Assembly (NCBI GenBank): GCA_025408405.1
Contig: JANYJE010000068.1
Span: 1 to 64,000 of the forward strand
DNA: 64,000 nt
Direction of reading: 5' to 3'
Origin: Nitrosomonadales bacterium
GTDB taxonomy: Bacteria; Pseudomonadota; Gammaproteobacteria; Burkholderiales; Gallionellaceae
Both the position numbers and the translations under genes were made by a program. Of this stretch, positions 34,089 through 42,033 are shown piece by piece (position 1 is the first letter of the stretch; each line of letters opens with the position of its first letter). The notes under the pieces are model-generated. The model was not told the origin of the DNA, did no database searches, and saw only the letters and a program-made list of their open reading frames with translations.

Positions 34089-35771
34089 ATGACGACAGGT
34101 ATATTGCACTATATGCGGCGCTCCAACCGCTGGTGGTCGATTGCCATGCTGGCGACTCTGCACTTCGCTTTGTTGGCGGGGGCGCAGACCCTGTGGGCGA
34201 AGTCGCTGCTGCTGACTCATCTGGGTTTGTTCTTGCTGTGGCAGCCGCTGTGGCGGGGTGAAAGCAAGTTAAGCCGGTGGAATGTCGTATTTATTCTGGG
34301 CTCCAGTGTGGTGGCCTTGTTCTGGCTCAACTGGTGGGTGCTGGCATTCTGGGTGAGCGGTTTGTTCGCCCTGGTGGGGGGGCGGGTGTTTGTGTTCCAG
34401 TCAAAATGGCAGCGCCTGCATTACCAGCTGGTAATGGTTTATCTGCTGGCGGTGCTGTTGTTCTGGATTACTCCCCACCTGTTTGATTTGCCCTCTGTGG
34501 ACGAGGCGACCAGGAGCTTGATGGAGCTGGCCCTGCCGTTGTTGCTGCTGAGCATGATGTTGGTGCCGCATGAACAAGAGCACGTTACCCGGGCTCAGAC
34601 GGTGGATTTTATTTACAGCATCATGCTGTTCATGCTGTTGACCCTGCTGGTGCTGGGGAGCCTGGCTTTTATGAGCCAGGCGCACACGGATTATTTTGGC
34701 GCCTTGTTGCGCACCCTGTTTATCATGGCGCTGCTGCTGTTCTTGCTGGGGTGGTTGTGGAATCCGCGCCTGGGCTTTTCCGGGCTGCAGCCGATATTTT
34801 CGCGCTATTTTCTGAACATCGGTACCCCGTTTGAGGGGTGGCTCAGGCATCTGGCAGAAGTGGCGCAACAAGAGCCGGGCCCGGCAAATTTTATGGTACG
34901 CGCCATGGATCACCTGTCCGAATTGCCATGGTTGTCCGGCTTGTCCTGGGAGTGCGAGGAAGGGCACGGCAATCTGGGAATGGCTTCTCCGCATCGTATT
35001 GAAGTGGCGGATCAAGACCTGCGCCTGACACTGTTCAGTCGCCAGGCTATCGCCCCTTCAGTGCTGGTGCACATTCATCTGCTGATTCAGTTGCTGGGGC
35101 ACTTTTATCAGGCCAAGCGGCGCGAGCAAAGCCTGCGCGAAATGGCGCGCCTGCAAGCCGTGTATGAGACCGGTGCCAGGCTGACGCACGATCTGAAAAA
35201 TATGTTGCAATCCTTGCTGGCGCTGACCTCCATCGCCGAGCACCAATCCGACCAGGCGCAGGCGGTGTTGCAGAACCAGTTGCCCGTGCTGGCGCAGCGC
35301 ATAGAGCTGACGCTGGCCAAGCTCAAAGCGCCACAACTGGTAACGGAGACAGCCACCTTGCCGCTGGCAAGGTGGTGGGAAAGCCTGCGCCAGCGCCAGC
35401 AGCACCGCAAGATCAAGTGGCTGGGCGAAGGCGCAACGGGCAAACAGCTTATTCCGGCAACCCTGTTTGACAGCATTGCCGACAACCTTATCGATAACGC
35501 CTGCAACAAGCTGCTGCGAGAGCCTGGCATCAACATCAGCGTAAGTTTGAGTGCGCACCCCCTGATTCTGACTGTGTGCGACAGCGGCAGCCCCATTCCC
35601 GATGCCGTCGCGCATCAGCTGCTGCACACCGTAGTGCCATCCGAGGATGGTATGGGGGTGGGGCTGTTTCAGGCGGCACGCTGGGCGGAGCAAGCGGGTT
35701 ACCGCATCAGCTTGCGCGCAAATGTGGCGGGACGAGTGTGCTTTGAATTGCAGCAGGCGGGCACTGTTTGA
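34089..35771 (+). CDS. orphan membrane sensor histidine kinase
   Basis: The 560-residue protein has about seven membrane segments in the first 230 residues. A GAF-like stretch follows, then an H-box (ETGARLTHDLKNMLQSLLAL) and a HATPase domain with N-box DNLIDNACNK, G1 VCDSGSPIP and G2 GMGVGLFQA. The H-box HDLKN and layout recall the PEP-CTERM kinase PrsK, but that link is inference. No response regulator or second kinase gene is adjacent. A GAGGGTGG site precedes the ATG. Confidence 0.8.
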   Translation: MTTGILHYMRRSNRWWSIAMLATLHFALLAGAQTLWAKSLLLTHLGLFLLWQPLWRGESKLSRWNVVFILGSSVVALFWLNWWVLAFWVSGLFALVGGRVFVFQSKWQRLHYQLVMVYLLAVLLFWITPHLFDLPSVDEATRSLMELALPLLLLSMMLVPHEQEHVTRAQTVDFIYSIMLFMLLTLLVLGSLAFMSQAHTDYFGALLRTLFIMALLLFLLGWLWNPRLGFSGLQPIFSRYFLNIGTPFEGWLRHLAEVAQQEPGPANFMVRAMDHLSELPWLSGLSWECEEGHGNLGMASPHRIEVADQDLRLTLFSRQAIAPSVLVHIHLLIQLLGHFYQAKRREQSLREMARLQAVYETGARLTHDLKNMLQSLLALTSIAEHQSDQAQAVLQNQLPVLAQRIELTLAKLKAPQLVTETATLPLARWWESLRQRQQHRKIKWLGEGATGKQLIPATLFDSIADNLIDNACNKLLREPGINISVSLSAHPLILTVCDSGSPIPDAVAHQLLHTVVPSEDGMGVGLFQAARWAEQAGYRISLRANVAGRVCFELQQAGTV

Positions 35772-35911
35772 GGTGTTGCTAATTCGATCCGGTATTGCTC
35801 AAAGAGCGCTTGGGTTGGTGCCGCTCGGCAAATTTGGAGCGGCAAAATCCTGCCAACTTTGTGTCTATATAGGGGCAAATGCAAAAATACAACAATAAAG
35901 CCACAAAGTTT

Positions 35912-35940
35912 TTGACAACAGTATTACCTTTCTGTATGTT
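35912..35940 (+). promoter_or_regulatory. sigma-70 promoter of the Cyc2-like gene
   Basis: A perfect TTGACA (35912-35917) is followed after exactly 17 bp by TATGTT (35935-35940). The expected start of transcription is near 35947, giving a leader of about 75 nt. An AGGGAGAGG ribosome site lies just before the ATG, consistent with high expression. Confidence 0.7.
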
Positions 35941-36022
35941 TGCCGGCTAGTAGTCGATCTATGAAACGCGACTATGAGATTATCGGGGTAACCTTACAAT
36001 TTTTTGATTTAGGGAGAGGTAA

Positions 36023-37450
36023 ATGAAAAAAATAGTACTTTCACTAGCAGCCGTCGTGGCTAGCGCAGTGTTTGCACCGGCAGCGTCCGCGTTGCCGGTA
36101 TTTGCGCGTCAAACCGGCATGGCATGTAGTGCCTGTCACTTCCAGCACTTCCCGCTGTTGAATGGCTTTGGCCGTTCGTTCAAGGCTTCCGGTTTCACTA
36201 TGTCCACAACCAATCTGGACGGCGAGAACCTGTCTATCCCTTCTAACCTGAACTTCGCCGGCTTGGCCAGCATGGGGTATGAGAAGAGCAACATGACTCC
36301 TCTCGCTTCAGCAAACGGTTTGGTTAACCCAGGTAATGGCTCATGGTACGTGCCAGGCACCAATGGCGAGATGTCGTTGTTCTTCGGCGGAAAAGTCAGT
36401 GAGAACGCCGGTTTCCTGGCTGAGTTGGGAGCTATCGGTGCTGCAGGTCTGGGTTCAGCCAAGCTGCCTATGCTGTTTGACGTGGCTGATGGCACCAAGG
36501 CGGGCATCGTGGCCTTTACCACCGGCACCCAGGGCGCATCCTACGGCTTTGAATACCTGAACACGGGTGCCAATGCCATCCACGCCATCACCAATGATGT
36601 TGGCTTTAACGGCCAATTCATCAATGCCGTTTCAGCGCAGCAATATATTAGTACTGGCTCTGGTGCGACAGGTTTGTCCTTGGTGGCGAACAACTCCATG
36701 GGCTTCATCAATATCACCAAGTATCACCAGGTTGGCCCGATGGACGTTGCCGGTACAATTAACGCTGCCGTTCCTGCTCCTGTTCCTGCAGCTGCAGGAG
36801 GTACGGGCGGAGACTTGTCCTCTACCTATATTCGCGTAGCGGCCACGTTTGATATCGCTGGTTGGGATTCCGCCGCGGGCGTTCAGAACTGGAGTGGCAA
36901 CTCTACTTCCGCTGCTCTGGCATATGTGGAAACCAAGGCGACTGCTGTTGACTTCCAGATGCAGGGCGAAGCAGCCAATATGCCACTGGGTATCTATGTA
37001 ACTTACGCCACGGCACCTGTGATGAGCGGTACCAATAACGGTACACCGATTGCAGGTACAGCAGCTACTGCTAGCGCCTTCAACAACGGCGGTACCGATA
37101 CGAAAAGCTCATTTAACGTTGCCGCTGAGCTGGGTGTAGTTCCCGGGGTTGCCACGGTGGGTGTAGCCGTACGCGTGGGTAAGAGCGGTCAATCGGTCTA
37201 CGCTAGCGCTGCGCTGGCTGGTGCTGCAGCTGCCGGAGTTACCAATGGTACTGAGAAATCGACCAATGCAACCGACAACGCCATCATGTTGACAGGTACT
37301 TACAAGCTGGCGCAGAACCAGTTGGTACGCTTGTCTTATGTCAAGCAAAGCGGTGACTACTGGGATGGCTTTGCTGCCGCAGCAACAGCGACGAATGCTG
37401 ACGCTACTGGCAGCACTTCCTACCGTCTGAGCCTGTACTCGTTGTTCTAA
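36023..37450 (+). CDS. cyc2: Cyc2-like outer-membrane porin-cytochrome (candidate iron oxidase)
   Basis: This 475-residue protein has a signal peptide ending ASA (residue 23), then a single c-type heme site C35-SA-C38-H39 within QTGMACSACHFQHFPLLNGFGRSFKASGFTM. The rest is a beta-rich segment with alternating strands ending in LSLYSLF, as expected for a 16-strand outer-membrane barrel. A monoheme N-terminus fused to a porin is the Cyc2 architecture, which takes electrons from extracellular Fe(II). CxxCHFQHFP and RSFKA are conserved in that family. It has its own promoter and terminator and no partner cytochrome beside it. Non-iron relatives of Cyc2 exist, so the substrate is inferred. Confidence 0.8.
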   Translation: MKKIVLSLAAVVASAVFAPAASALPVFARQTGMACSACHFQHFPLLNGFGRSFKASGFTMSTTNLDGENLSIPSNLNFAGLASMGYEKSNMTPLASANGLVNPGNGSWYVPGTNGEMSLFFGGKVSENAGFLAELGAIGAAGLGSAKLPMLFDVADGTKAGIVAFTTGTQGASYGFEYLNTGANAIHAITNDVGFNGQFINAVSAQQYISTGSGATGLSLVANNSMGFINITKYHQVGPMDVAGTINAAVPAPVPAAAGGTGGDLSSTYIRVAATFDIAGWDSAAGVQNWSGNSTSAALAYVETKATAVDFQMQGEAANMPLGIYVTYATAPVMSGTNNGTPIAGTAATASAFNNGGTDTKSSFNVAAELGVVPGVATVGVAVRVGKSGQSVYASAALAGAAAAGVTNGTEKSTNATDNAIMLTGTYKLAQNQLVRLSYVKQSGDYWDGFAAAATATNADATGSTSYRLSLYSLF

Positions 37451-37481
37451 GCAACAAGTCCAAGGTTGTAGCAATACAATG

Positions 37482-37508
37482 CAGGGAGCTTCGGCTCCCT
37501 GTATTTTT
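37482..37508 (+). terminator. Rho-independent terminator of the Cyc2-like gene
   Basis: CAGGGAGC-TTCG-GCTCCCTG with a UUCG loop, followed by TATTTTTG, about 30 bp after the stop. Confidence 0.9.
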
Positions 37509-37601: not shown

Positions 37602-38102
37602 ATGAAAAGAATTATCTCTCTCGCGATCTTGAGCGTGTCTATCCTGCCGCTGGTTGCGCAGGCCGAAGAGCACTCCGAGAATTATGTCGGCATATCGGCC
37701 AGCAAGCTGACCTCTGGCGGTTCCAGCACCGGTGCCGGCATCGTGCTGGGGCATCGCTACAACGAGCATTGGGCTGCCGAAATAGCCTACGATGATTCTG
37801 GATTGCTCAGTGCTCTTCCAGAAAGGACCAGTGCCATTTCTATCGCGGCAGTGGGTTATCTGCCGCTCGTTGCCGATTTGGAAGCTTATGGGCGCCTGGG
37901 TTATGCGTCCGCCAGCACCAAGGATGGATTCGGTATAACAGTGACTCACGGCGACGTTACTTGCGGGGTTGGCGTGGAGTATCGTTTGAACGAAGAATAC
38001 GCGCTAGGCTTTGGCTGGAATCAGGTAATCATTGGCGACAATGTGGACATTCCGCGCGCCAACGAGAATTCCTATGCGCTGACGGTGCTGCGCAGTTTCT
38101 AA
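37602..38102 (+). CDS. small outer-membrane beta-barrel protein
   Basis: This 166-residue protein has a signal peptide (MKRIISLAILSVSILPLVAQA) and eight predicted strands, such as NYVGISASKL, AGIVLGHRYNEHWAAEIAYDD and YALTVLRSF with terminal Phe. It resembles OmpA/OmpX-type barrels. It follows the Cyc2-like gene but is separated from it by a terminator, so it is a separate unit. The function is unknown. Confidence 0.75.
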   Translation: MKRIISLAILSVSILPLVAQAEEHSENYVGISASKLTSGGSSTGAGIVLGHRYNEHWAAEIAYDDSGLLSALPERTSAISIAAVGYLPLVADLEAYGRLGYASASTKDGFGITVTHGDVTCGVGVEYRLNEEYALGFGWNQVIIGDNVDIPRANENSYALTVLRSF

Positions 38103-38196: not shown

Positions 38197-41100
38197 ATGA
38201 CCTCGCCGCAAGAATCCTCCATCGCTGTTCCGGCAGCGAGCACGCCCCCTGAAAATTCGTTGCAGGCGCGCCGCGCCGCGCGCATCGCGGCTGTCCAGCC
38301 GATCGAGTATCCGGCCGAATTGCCGGTGGTGTTGCGGCGCGAGGACATCGCACAGGCCATCTCCCGGCATCAGGTGGTGATCGTGTGCGGCGAGACGGGC
38401 TCGGGAAAGACCACGCAATTGCCCAAGATTTGCCTGCAGCTCGGGCGCGGTGTGCACGGGGTGATCGCGCACACACAGCCGCGCCGGGTGGCGGCGCGCA
38501 CGGTGGCTGCCCGCGTGGCGCACGAGCTCAACACCGAGCTGGGCGGGCTGGTCGGCTACAAGATCCGTTTCAATGACCGCGTGGCGCCCGACACCTGTAT
38601 CAAGTTGATGACCGACGGCATCCTGCTGGCTGAAATCCAGAGTGACCCCGGGCTCCGGCATTACGACACCATCATCATCGACGAGGCGCACGAGCGCTCG
38701 CTCAACATCGACTTCCTGCTCGGCTATTTCAAGCAGCTGTTGCCCAGGCGTCCCGGGCTCAAGCTCATCATCACCTCGGCCACGCTGGATGCCGAGCGCT
38801 TTTCCAGGCATTTCTCGGCGGCGCCGGTATTGCAGGTGTCAGGCCGCAGCTATCCGGTGGAAGTGCGTTACCGCCCGCCGCAAGCGAATGAAGAGGGAGA
38901 AATACAGGACGTACCGCAGGCGGTGTGCGCTGCGCTGGACGATCTTGCCGTGGGCGGCTTGCGCGGCGATGTGCTGGTGTTCCTGCCGGGCGAGCGCGAG
39001 ATACGCGACACGGCGGAAGCCTTGCGCAAACACCATCTCCCGCAAAGGAAACAGGGAGGCGTGGAAATCCTGGCGCTGTTTTCGCGCCTGTCTGCCGCCG
39101 AGCAGGATCGCGTGTTCAAGCCTGCGTCCGGCACGCGCCGCGTGGTGCTGGCCACCAACGTGGCGGAGACTTCGCTTACCGTGCCCAACATCGGCTATGT
39201 GATCGACGCAGGCCTTGCGCGCGTCAACCGCTATAGTATCCGCCAGAAAGTCGAGCAGCTGCGCGTGGAAAAAATTTCGCGTGCGGCGGCCAATCAGCGT
39301 GCCGGGCGTTGCGGCCGCGTCATGAGCGGCATCTGCGTGCGCCTCTACGATGAGGCCGATTTCATTGCGCGCGCCGAATACACCGATGCGGAAATCTTCC
39401 GCGTGTCTCTGGCCACTGTCATCTTGCGCATGAGCGCGTTGCGTCTGGGCGAGGTGGAGAAATTTCCCTTTATCGAGGCGCCCGGCTCGCGCTCGATCGC
39501 AGATGGTTACCAGCTGCTGGCCGAACTGGGTGCCATCGACGCGGAGCGCCAGCTCACACCATTGGGGCGCGAGCTGGCCAAACTGCCGCTGGATCCCAAG
39601 ATTGCGCGCCTGCTGCTGGCCGGACGCCAATATCATTGCCTGCAGGAAATTCTGATTGTCGCCAGCGCGCTGTCGCTGCAGGATCCGCGCGACCGCCCGG
39701 CTGAGCGGCGCGAGGCGGCGGATGCCGCGCATCAGCGCTTTAACGACGAACGTTCGGATTTTCTCGCTTATATCAAATTGTGGGCGTGGTTTCAGGAGGC
39801 CTTGCGCCACAAGAAAACCAACCGCCAGTGGGCGAACGAGTGCCGCGAAAAATTCCTGTCGCCGCTGCGCCTGCGCGAATGGCACGAGCTGTATCAGCAG
39901 CTGCATGCACAGGTGGTGGAAATGGGCATGCGCATGAACGAGCAGCCCGCCAGCTACGAGCAGGTACACAAGGCGCTACTCACCGGCCTGCTCGGCAACA
40001 TCGGCTGCAAGGGCGTGGAGCGCGAGCCCTATTATCTGGGGGCGCGCGAGATCAAGTTTTTCGTCGCACCCAATTCGGTGCTGGCAAAGAAAGGCGCGAA
40101 GTGGATAGTTGCCGCCGAGATCGTGGAGACCACCAGGCTGTATGCGCGTTGCGTGGCGCGCATCGAGCCGGAGTGGCTGGAGGAAGTGGGCGCACATTTG
40201 ATCAAACGGACTTACTACGATCCGCACTGGGAAAAGAAGGCGGCACAGGTAGCCGCGTTCGAGCGCAGCACGTTGTATGGCCTGCTCATCAACCCCAGGA
40301 AGCGGGTGAACTACGGGCCGATGAATGTGGCGGAAGCGCGCGCCGTGTTTATCCGCCAGGCGCTGGTGGAGGGCGAGTTCAATACCGTGGCAGCGTTCTT
40401 CGCGCACAACAGGAAGCTCATACACGACATCGAGGCGCTGGAACACAAGTCGCGCCGGCCCGACGTGCTGGTGGACGACGAGTTGATCTTTGCCTTTTAC
40501 GACAGCCGCATTCCCGGGCCTGATTCCGGGCAACACATCCACAACGGCGCGGCGTTCGAGGCGTGGCGCAAGGAGGCGGAGCGCGAGCAGCCAAAACTGC
40601 TGTACCTGCAGCGCGACGACCTGATGCGCCACGAGGCGGCGGGGATTACCACCGACCAGTTTCCGCCGCAGCTGGTGATGAACAACGTGAGCTATGCACT
40701 GGGTTACAACTTTTCACCCGGCAAGAGCGATGATGGCGTCACCCTCACCGTGCCGCAGGCACTGATCAACCAGGTGTCGGCGCCACGCTGCGAATATCTG
40801 GTGCCCGGGGTGCTGGCGGAGAAGGTGGTGCAGCTGCTGAAAACCCTGCCGCAAAAAATACGCCGCAACCTGGTGCCGGTGCCGGAGTTCGCGGGCAATT
40901 TCTGCAGCGAGACCGAGCCTTCTGATAGCGGCTTGCTGCAGGCGCTGGCGCGTTACATCCGTGCCAAAAAACAGCTCGATGTGCCACTGGATGCGTTCCG
41001 CATCGAACAGCTGCCGCAGCACCTGCTGATGAATTTCGTGGTGGTGGACGAGCACGGGCGCAGCTTGCGCATGTCGCGCAACTTTGCCCAGTTGCGCGCC

Positions 41101-42033
41101 GAGCTGGCGCCGAAACAGGCTGCTGTGGCCATTGCACCCGCAACCAGCAGCGCACCCGGCGCTGCGGCAGCTGCGGCAAGTGCGCGCATGACCGAATGGA
41201 ATTTTGGCGAGTTCAAGCCGACCACCGAGATCGTCCGTGCCGGGCAAACCATCACGCTGTTCAACGCGCTGGTGGACGACAGCGATGCCGTGCTGCTGCG
41301 CGCCTACGATACGCGTGAAGAGGCGCAAGCCGCGCACCGGCTGGGGCTGCGCCGCCTGTTTATGCTGGCGCTGAAAGAGCAGGTGAAGTTTCTGGAAAAG
41401 AATCTGTTCGCAAACAAGGAGTACGGGCAGACCATGACCATGCAATTTTTGCCTTTCGGCAGTGCGCAGGATTTGCAGCGCCAGATTTTTGCCGTGACCT
41501 TTGATCGCTGCTGTCTGAATGATCCCCTGCCCACGCATGAAAATGAATTTGCCACGCGCTGCAAGGAGGCGAAGAGCAGGCTGAATCTGGTGGCGCAGGA
41601 AATCGCGCGCCTGCTCAGCGCCATCCTGCAGGAATATCACGCCCTGCAAAAAGCCCTGCCTGCATTCAAGGCGCATGGCGCAGCCATGCAGGACATGCGT
41701 GCGCAGTGCGAATGGATGCTGCACCGGGAGTTTGTCGCGCGCACGCCGTATGAGCGCCTGCAGCACATGCCGCGCTATCTCAAGGCGATCAACCTGCGTC
41801 TGGAAAAGCTGCGTGCCGACCCCGCGCGCGATGCGCGCCAGTTTGCGCAAATGGCGGCACTGCAGCAGGCCTGGCAGCGCAAGCTTGCGGCCCGGCAAGG
41901 CCATGTCGACAACAAGGTCGAAGAGTTTGGCTGGCTGCTGCAGGAACTGCGCGTGTCGCTGTTTGCGCAGGAACTGAAAACGCCGGTAATCGTGTCGGTG
42001 AAGCGGCTGCAGAAGATGTGGGAAGGGCTATAG
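38197..42033 (+). CDS. hrpA: ATP-dependent RNA helicase HrpA
   Basis: HrpA is a DEAH-box 3'-to-5' RNA helicase that helps rescue stalled ribosomes. The 1278-residue protein has motif I CGETGSGKTTQLPKI, motif II DEAHERS, motif III SATLDAERF, motif V VVLATNVAETSLTVPNIGYVID and motif VI QRAGRCGR, then the HA2/OB regions and the long DUF3418 C-terminus typical of HrpA. Full length. The start lies shortly after the barrel terminator. Confidence 0.95.
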   Translation: MTSPQESSIAVPAASTPPENSLQARRAARIAAVQPIEYPAELPVVLRREDIAQAISRHQVVIVCGETGSGKTTQLPKICLQLGRGVHGVIAHTQPRRVAARTVAARVAHELNTELGGLVGYKIRFNDRVAPDTCIKLMTDGILLAEIQSDPGLRHYDTIIIDEAHERSLNIDFLLGYFKQLLPRRPGLKLIITSATLDAERFSRHFSAAPVLQVSGRSYPVEVRYRPPQANEEGEIQDVPQAVCAALDDLAVGGLRGDVLVFLPGEREIRDTAEALRKHHLPQRKQGGVEILALFSRLSAAEQDRVFKPASGTRRVVLATNVAETSLTVPNIGYVIDAGLARVNRYSIRQKVEQLRVEKISRAAANQRAGRCGRVMSGICVRLYDEADFIARAEYTDAEIFRVSLATVILRMSALRLGEVEKFPFIEAPGSRSIADGYQLLAELGAIDAERQLTPLGRELAKLPLDPKIARLLLAGRQYHCLQEILIVASALSLQDPRDRPAERREAADAAHQRFNDERSDFLAYIKLWAWFQEALRHKKTNRQWANECREKFLSPLRLREWHELYQQLHAQVVEMGMRMNEQPASYEQVHKALLTGLLGNIGCKGVEREPYYLGAREIKFFVAPNSVLAKKGAKWIVAAEIVETTRLYARCVARIEPEWLEEVGAHLIKRTYYDPHWEKKAAQVAAFERSTLYGLLINPRKRVNYGPMNVAEARAVFIRQALVEGEFNTVAAFFAHNRKLIHDIEALEHKSRRPDVLVDDELIFAFYDSRIPGPDSGQHIHNGAAFEAWRKEAEREQPKLLYLQRDDLMRHEAAGITTDQFPPQLVMNNVSYALGYNFSPGKSDDGVTLTVPQALINQVSAPRCEYLVPGVLAEKVVQLLKTLPQKIRRNLVPVPEFAGNFCSETEPSDSGLLQALARYIRAKKQLDVPLDAFRIEQLPQHLLMNFVVVDEHGRSLRMSRNFAQLRAELAPKQAAVAIAPATSSAPGAAAAAASARMTEWNFGEFKPTTEIVRAGQTITLFNALVDDSDAVLLRAYDTREEAQAAHRLGLRRLFMLALKEQVKFLEKNLFANKEYGQTMTMQFLPFGSAQDLQRQIFAVTFDRCCLNDPLPTHENEFATRCKEAKSRLNLVAQEIARLLSAILQEYHALQKALPAFKAHGAAMQDMRAQCEWMLHREFVARTPYERLQHMPRYLKAINLRLEKLRADPARDARQFAQMAALQQAWQRKLAARQGHVDNKVEEFGWLLQELRVSLFAQELKTPVIVSVKRLQKMWEGL

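Follow-up and report, generated by a model that had tools for sequence, protein, structure and literature searches.

What does the gene at 36023-37450 of the window (the whole 64 000-nt stretch of DNA analysed) encode, and what at this locus deserves further attention? A sequence-only reading had proposed a Cyc2-type porin-cytochrome with an architecture known from iron oxidisers. We confirmed that the gene truly belongs to the known Cyc2 family, of which it is an ordinary member; sequence motifs, barrel model and tree placement all agree on the type, and since the literature already describes this architecture well, it is not new. The parts worth following, which matter more than Cyc2 itself, are a candidate operator and an exchange of cyc2 alleles.

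The Cyc2 family is defined by a signal peptide, one CXXCH, an AXPXFAR[Q/K][T/Y] motif upstream and a PXL motif downstream of it, and a 16-stranded OprO/OprP-like barrel (PMC8406198). In the window gene these elements are located as follows.

36023..37450, + strand: cyc2 for 475 aa, an uninterrupted frame from ATG through the TAA stop
36023..36091, + strand: signal peptide of 23 aa with cleavage after ASA, read from the sequence
36089..36154, + strand: cytochrome segment with the ALPVFARQT motif, CSACH (36125-36139) and PLL, from sequence and alignment
36251..37447, + strand: 16-stranded outer-membrane barrel ending in Phe, from an AlphaFold2 model and its OprO/OprP match

The precursor starts with MKKIVLSLAAVVASAVFAPAASA, a Lys-rich and hydrophobic N-terminus (MKK followed by a hydrophobic core) that ends in ASA-L; past the likely cleavage site the sequence continues as LPVFARQTGMACSACHFQHFPLLNGFGRSFK, and the C-terminal end is YSLF. 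The AXPXFAR[Q/K][T/Y] motif stands just before the heme site (ALPVFARQT-GMA-CSACH) and the PXL motif begins four residues past it (CSACH-FQHF-PLL). The protein has a single CXXCH in 475 aa, against a required length of at least 365 aa; it is continuous with FQHFP (CSACHFQHFP), and both Cys of the entire protein lie inside it. Thus, the signal peptide, the lone CSACH heme site with its HFQHFP and the barrel ending in Phe, all named in the sequence-only reading, were borne out. The same layout is common to dozens of homologues, and this is the only cyc2 copy that we found in its own genome (2.51 Mb in 98 contigs, 93% complete).

The AlphaFold2 model, computed from an alignment of 71 sequences, had pLDDT 81 and pTM 0.84, with low-quality prediction in the first eight residues and in four loops. 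After the N-terminal heme segment it contains exactly 16 long strands (mature residues 54-66, 94-103, 106-115, 122-132, 135-144, 192-201, 204-212, 244-255, 258-268, 283-294, 297-308, 338-350, 354-364, 396-407, 410-420 and 442-451). The top matches among solved structures, over residues 1-452, were OprO (4rjw, Z 21.8) and OprP (2o4v, Z 21.5), the published templates for the Cyc2 barrel (PMC8406198); other 16-stranded porins were tied with them or came within about 2 Z units (Z 20-21). A structure without a closed barrel would have spoken against the earlier reading; the model aligns end to end with the closed OprO/OprP barrels. This match supports the predicted fold but, alone, not the function. 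Sequence searches of the PDB with Cyc2 gave chance matches only and thus revealed no solved structure of a relative.

Homologue searches gave 64 matching stretches, which were spread over 63 loci and came mostly from Gallionellaceae where the organism was named; the barrel has diverged, and the relatives found share at most about 60% identity with the window protein. The Cyc2 motifs were present in all 86 aligned sequences (the Gallionellaceae set and Zetaproteobacteria). In mature numbering, residues invariant across both groups are P2, F4, R6, Q7, C12, C15, H16, P21, G27 and F30 in the heme part and R248, D287, Q289, Y404 and N409 in the barrel; we consider them candidate heme-packing and pore residues. 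A Pfam search gave no match and no porin family. No Cyc2 model was matched in NCBIfam, where a weak, sub-threshold match to 'mini_HHHH' was rejected, and a tblastn search against plasmids found nothing.

The tree was built from 88 sequences, among which the characterised proteins of Mariprofundus PV-1 and Leptospirillum (Cluster 3, Cyt572) were not individually identified; a reference for Cluster 2 was obtained through a rusticyanin search that led to a genome whose cyc2 belongs to a rus operon. The query fell inside a Gallionellaceae Cyc2 clade of 50 rows (SH-aLRT 100). The Zetaproteobacteria Cyc2 joined a larger group around this clade (support 87), while the proteins of rus-operon genomes formed a separate clade (99), together with four that come from further families of this order. 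According to the literature, Cyc2 of Gallionellaceae and Zetaproteobacteria make up Cluster 1, and rus-operon Cyc2 is of the Acidithiobacillus kind (Cluster 2). The query thus groups on the Cluster 1 side, away from the Acidithiobacillus-type proteins, and the placement outside known Cyc2 clusters that would have countered the earlier reading was not observed.

With Cluster 1 proteins (Mariprofundus ferrooxydans PV-1, Gallionellaceae; PMC8406198, PMC10734462) the window protein shares the signal peptide, the single CXXCH, AxPxFARQT and PxL, the 16-stranded barrel of the OprO/OprP kind, a length in the range of about 430-475 aa and a stand-alone gene; it differs in its divergence from every member found and in its allele, which belongs to another Gallionellaceae subclade than those of two genus mates (for one of the two, the allele compared stands at this very locus). 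It has in common with Cluster 2 (Acidithiobacillus-type, rus operon) the fused heme domain and barrel, but lacks the rus operon. No rusticyanin/Cyc1 operon was found beside the window gene, which is normal for neutrophiles.

In many Zetaproteobacteria we observed a second ORF whose match to Cyc2 is confined to the heme segment (profile positions 1-37; L130 is an example), and some of these ORFs are only ~90-150 aa long. Here the heme domain possibly stands alone or is fused in a different way.

The predicted transcription unit contains the following signals.

35912..35940, + strand: sigma-70-type promoter TTGACA-17-TATGTT, from a consensus scan; hexamers and spacing identical in genus mate G004
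36012..36019, + strand: ribosome-binding site GGGAGAGG, read from the sequence, three bases 5' of the ATG
37478..37505, + strand: intrinsic terminator hairpin; in G004, too, a CTTCGG hairpin and a T-run come after the gene

The promoter agrees with the consensus at 10 of 12 positions, in a scan that by itself did not rise above chance (two sites found versus 1.9 expected). Still, cyc2 of G004 is preceded by the same hexamers with equal spacing and within a common context (TTTTTGACA ... TCTGTATGTT ... AGTAGTC), so the promoter is probably genuine. The terminator is strong, with a 12-pair stem, a CTTCGG loop and a T-run. Intergenic gaps of 251 nt upstream and 151 nt downstream make cyc2 monocistronic by layout; the proposal that the gene stands alone with its own promoter and terminator thus holds at the level of prediction.

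Genome context was collected from targeted stretches of the own genome (G000). The search for MtoAB-like genes that the sequence-only reading had suggested was productive: contig C70 encodes in a row a monoheme cytochrome, a decaheme protein of the MtoA type (over the DmsE-family cut-off, ten heme motifs) and a porin over the MtrB/PioB-family cut-off. MtoAB and PioAB complexes resemble Cyc2 in transferring electrons across an outer-membrane barrel, but consist of two proteins with ten hemes and a 26-stranded barrel according to the literature, and MtoAB here occupies a locus of its own. Contig C34 carries a 21-heme cytochrome, whose number of hemes is PCC3-like when compared with the literature, and beside it a 939-aa protein that may be its porin. 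On contig C8 a multiheme protein, molybdopterin-like and FeS subunits and NrfD-type membrane proteins are read as alternative complex III from gene order and family matches below cut-off. Contig C56 has narGHJI (narG and narH over cut-off) and also genes read as bc1. A RuBisCO large subunit is present, as is a cbb3-like oxidase subunit (below the curated cut-off). Between the narGHJI and bc1 genes of the same genome there is also a hexaheme protein whose C-terminal part is PdsA/CcoP-like (L102, 9223-12932); its neighbours are a protein of the TAT type and an NrfD-like membrane protein.

Among genomes of Gallionellaceae iron oxidisers 83% have cyc2 and 37% have both cyc2 and mtoA (PMC10734462). 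The genome looks typical of a freshwater iron oxidiser, like the autotrophic Gallionellaceae iron oxidiser of that published picture, and Cyc2 marks it as a probable autotrophic Fe(II) oxidiser, with one route for dissolved iron (Cyc2) and another for mineral iron (MtoAB). We are highly confident that the product of the window gene is a Gallionellaceae Cyc2 of the Cluster 1 type, serving as outer-membrane oxidase of dissolved Fe(II). The activity itself is attributed by family analogy: Fe(II) oxidation and a potential of 208 mV are documented for the Cluster 1 Cyc2 from Mariprofundus (PMC8406198). As in characterised relatives (Cyc2 of PV-1), dissolved Fe2+ would enter the barrel from outside and pass one electron to the heme, which would form a plug at the periplasmic mouth of the barrel, and Fe3+ would leave. 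Periplasmic c-type cytochromes would then take over the electron and hand it to a terminal oxidase, providing energy, or else send it uphill through bc1 or alternative complex III to quinone, providing reducing power for RuBisCO-based CO2 fixation. MtoAB would serve mineral-bound or complexed Fe(II).

One could argue that a member of the Cyc2 family has shifted here to another role, such as transporting solutes or taking electrons from a different donor, leaving MtoAB as the real iron oxidase. Such a shift would fit a genome that also encodes MtoAB and a 21-heme cytochrome, and it would fit the diverged barrel, 45% identical to the syntenic gene of the genus mate. However, all family-invariant heme-domain residues and the five invariant barrel residues are retained, and cyc2 keeps its own conserved promoter; also, on dissolved Fe(II) the gene that S. 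lithotrophicus ES-1 expresses strongly is cyc2 and not mtoA (PMC10734462). We regard the shift of role as improbable. Even less credit is due to the idea of a general porin, or another outer-membrane protein, in which CXXCH arose by chance. Ordinary 16-stranded porins do match the barrel nearly as well as OprO/OprP, but in all 86 aligned sequences the CXXCH lies within the Cyc2-specific AxPxFAR[QK][TY]...PxL context, and Pfam assigned no porin family. Because of this conserved motif, the ordinary-porin and chance-heme readings were rejected, and what likelihood they retain is very slight.

The genes around cyc2 are as follows.

34089-35771: membrane histidine-kinase-like gene directly upstream of cyc2, HATPase_c just under the Pfam cut-off
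37602-38102: small OmpA-like barrel gene downstream of cyc2, from a family search
38197-42033: HrpA-like helicase gene downstream of cyc2, assigned by reading, not by family search

We compared the segment 34089-42033 with three loci of other genomes (L167, L168 and L170). Genes flanking cyc2 showed 77.6-98.8% amino-acid identity to those of G004 (except a pilin-like gene, 58.5%), whereas cyc2 at the same locus showed 44.9%. Against G012, from another genus, identity of the flanks dropped to 56.7-91% while that of cyc2 rose to 51.5%. In the tree the query belonged to one Gallionellaceae subclade (31 rows, 99), and the genus mates G004 and G003 to the other (24 rows, 97); holding the query, G004 and G003 together was rejected (AU p = 0.0005, for a group named after seeing the tree). 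A diverged cyc2 amid similar flanks, with an allele of the other subclade, indicates that cyc2 appears to have been exchanged in place, and in-place replacement is the reading that fits these comparisons best. The alternative may be an ancient tandem duplicate of cyc2 from which different lineages lost different copies: relatives often have cyc2 in tandem, and we saw tandem or nearby second copies in many Gallionellaceae (for example, at 11 loci). In-place replacement, which we prefer, would show at one locus the kind of transfer of Cyc2 previously inferred from trees (PMC12442345).

Upstream of many Gallionellaceae cyc2 genes, as well as of some porins, we observed a palindrome, TGTTGCA-N4-TGCAACA, whose centre lies about 25 nt 5' of the -35 element. 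With at most two mismatches it was present in 15 of 61 cyc2 upstream regions versus 0.08 expected in shuffles, a figure that flatters the motif, which was read from the same sequences; its centre was mostly 23-26 nt 5' of the TTGACA box. A separate scan of 80 genomes of the family located exact sites in 19 of them, a single one in each; the reversed control gave no site. Thirteen of these sites were shortly upstream of cyc2, several of them in genomes other than those from which the motif had been read, and four preceded porin-like genes; of the remaining sites one preceded a longer exported protein and one had no clear gene. We propose the palindrome as a candidate operator of Gallionellaceae cyc2. 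Its inner part, TTGCA-N4-TGCAA, is laid out like an FNR/FixK-type box. The pio iron-oxidation operon is regulated by FixK (PMC3050613). In the open-access literature searched we found no description of a cyc2 operator; a candidate one would give a first handle on cyc2 control in neutrophilic iron oxidisers.

35877..35894, + strand: degenerate palindrome copy AAATGCAAAAATACAACA, 4 mismatches of 14

The centre of the window copy is 26 nt before the -35 element, a spacing like that of the better copies at other Gallionellaceae cyc2 genes. Whether it is a working operator is uncertain, because only this degenerate copy is present. A search of the own genome with three mismatches allowed gave 276 sites versus 79 for the reversed control, too loose a search to define a regulon. 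We find the arguments evenly balanced for the broader proposal that cyc2 and ordinary porins of Gallionellaceae share an operator, in a class-I activator position and as part of a porin regulon, and that the window cyc2 coding sequence was exchanged from the other subclade with its core promoter kept.

The orphan histidine-kinase-like gene at 34089-35771 is kept beside cyc2 in several Gallionellaceae (the three compared loci and L063) and is a possible regulator.
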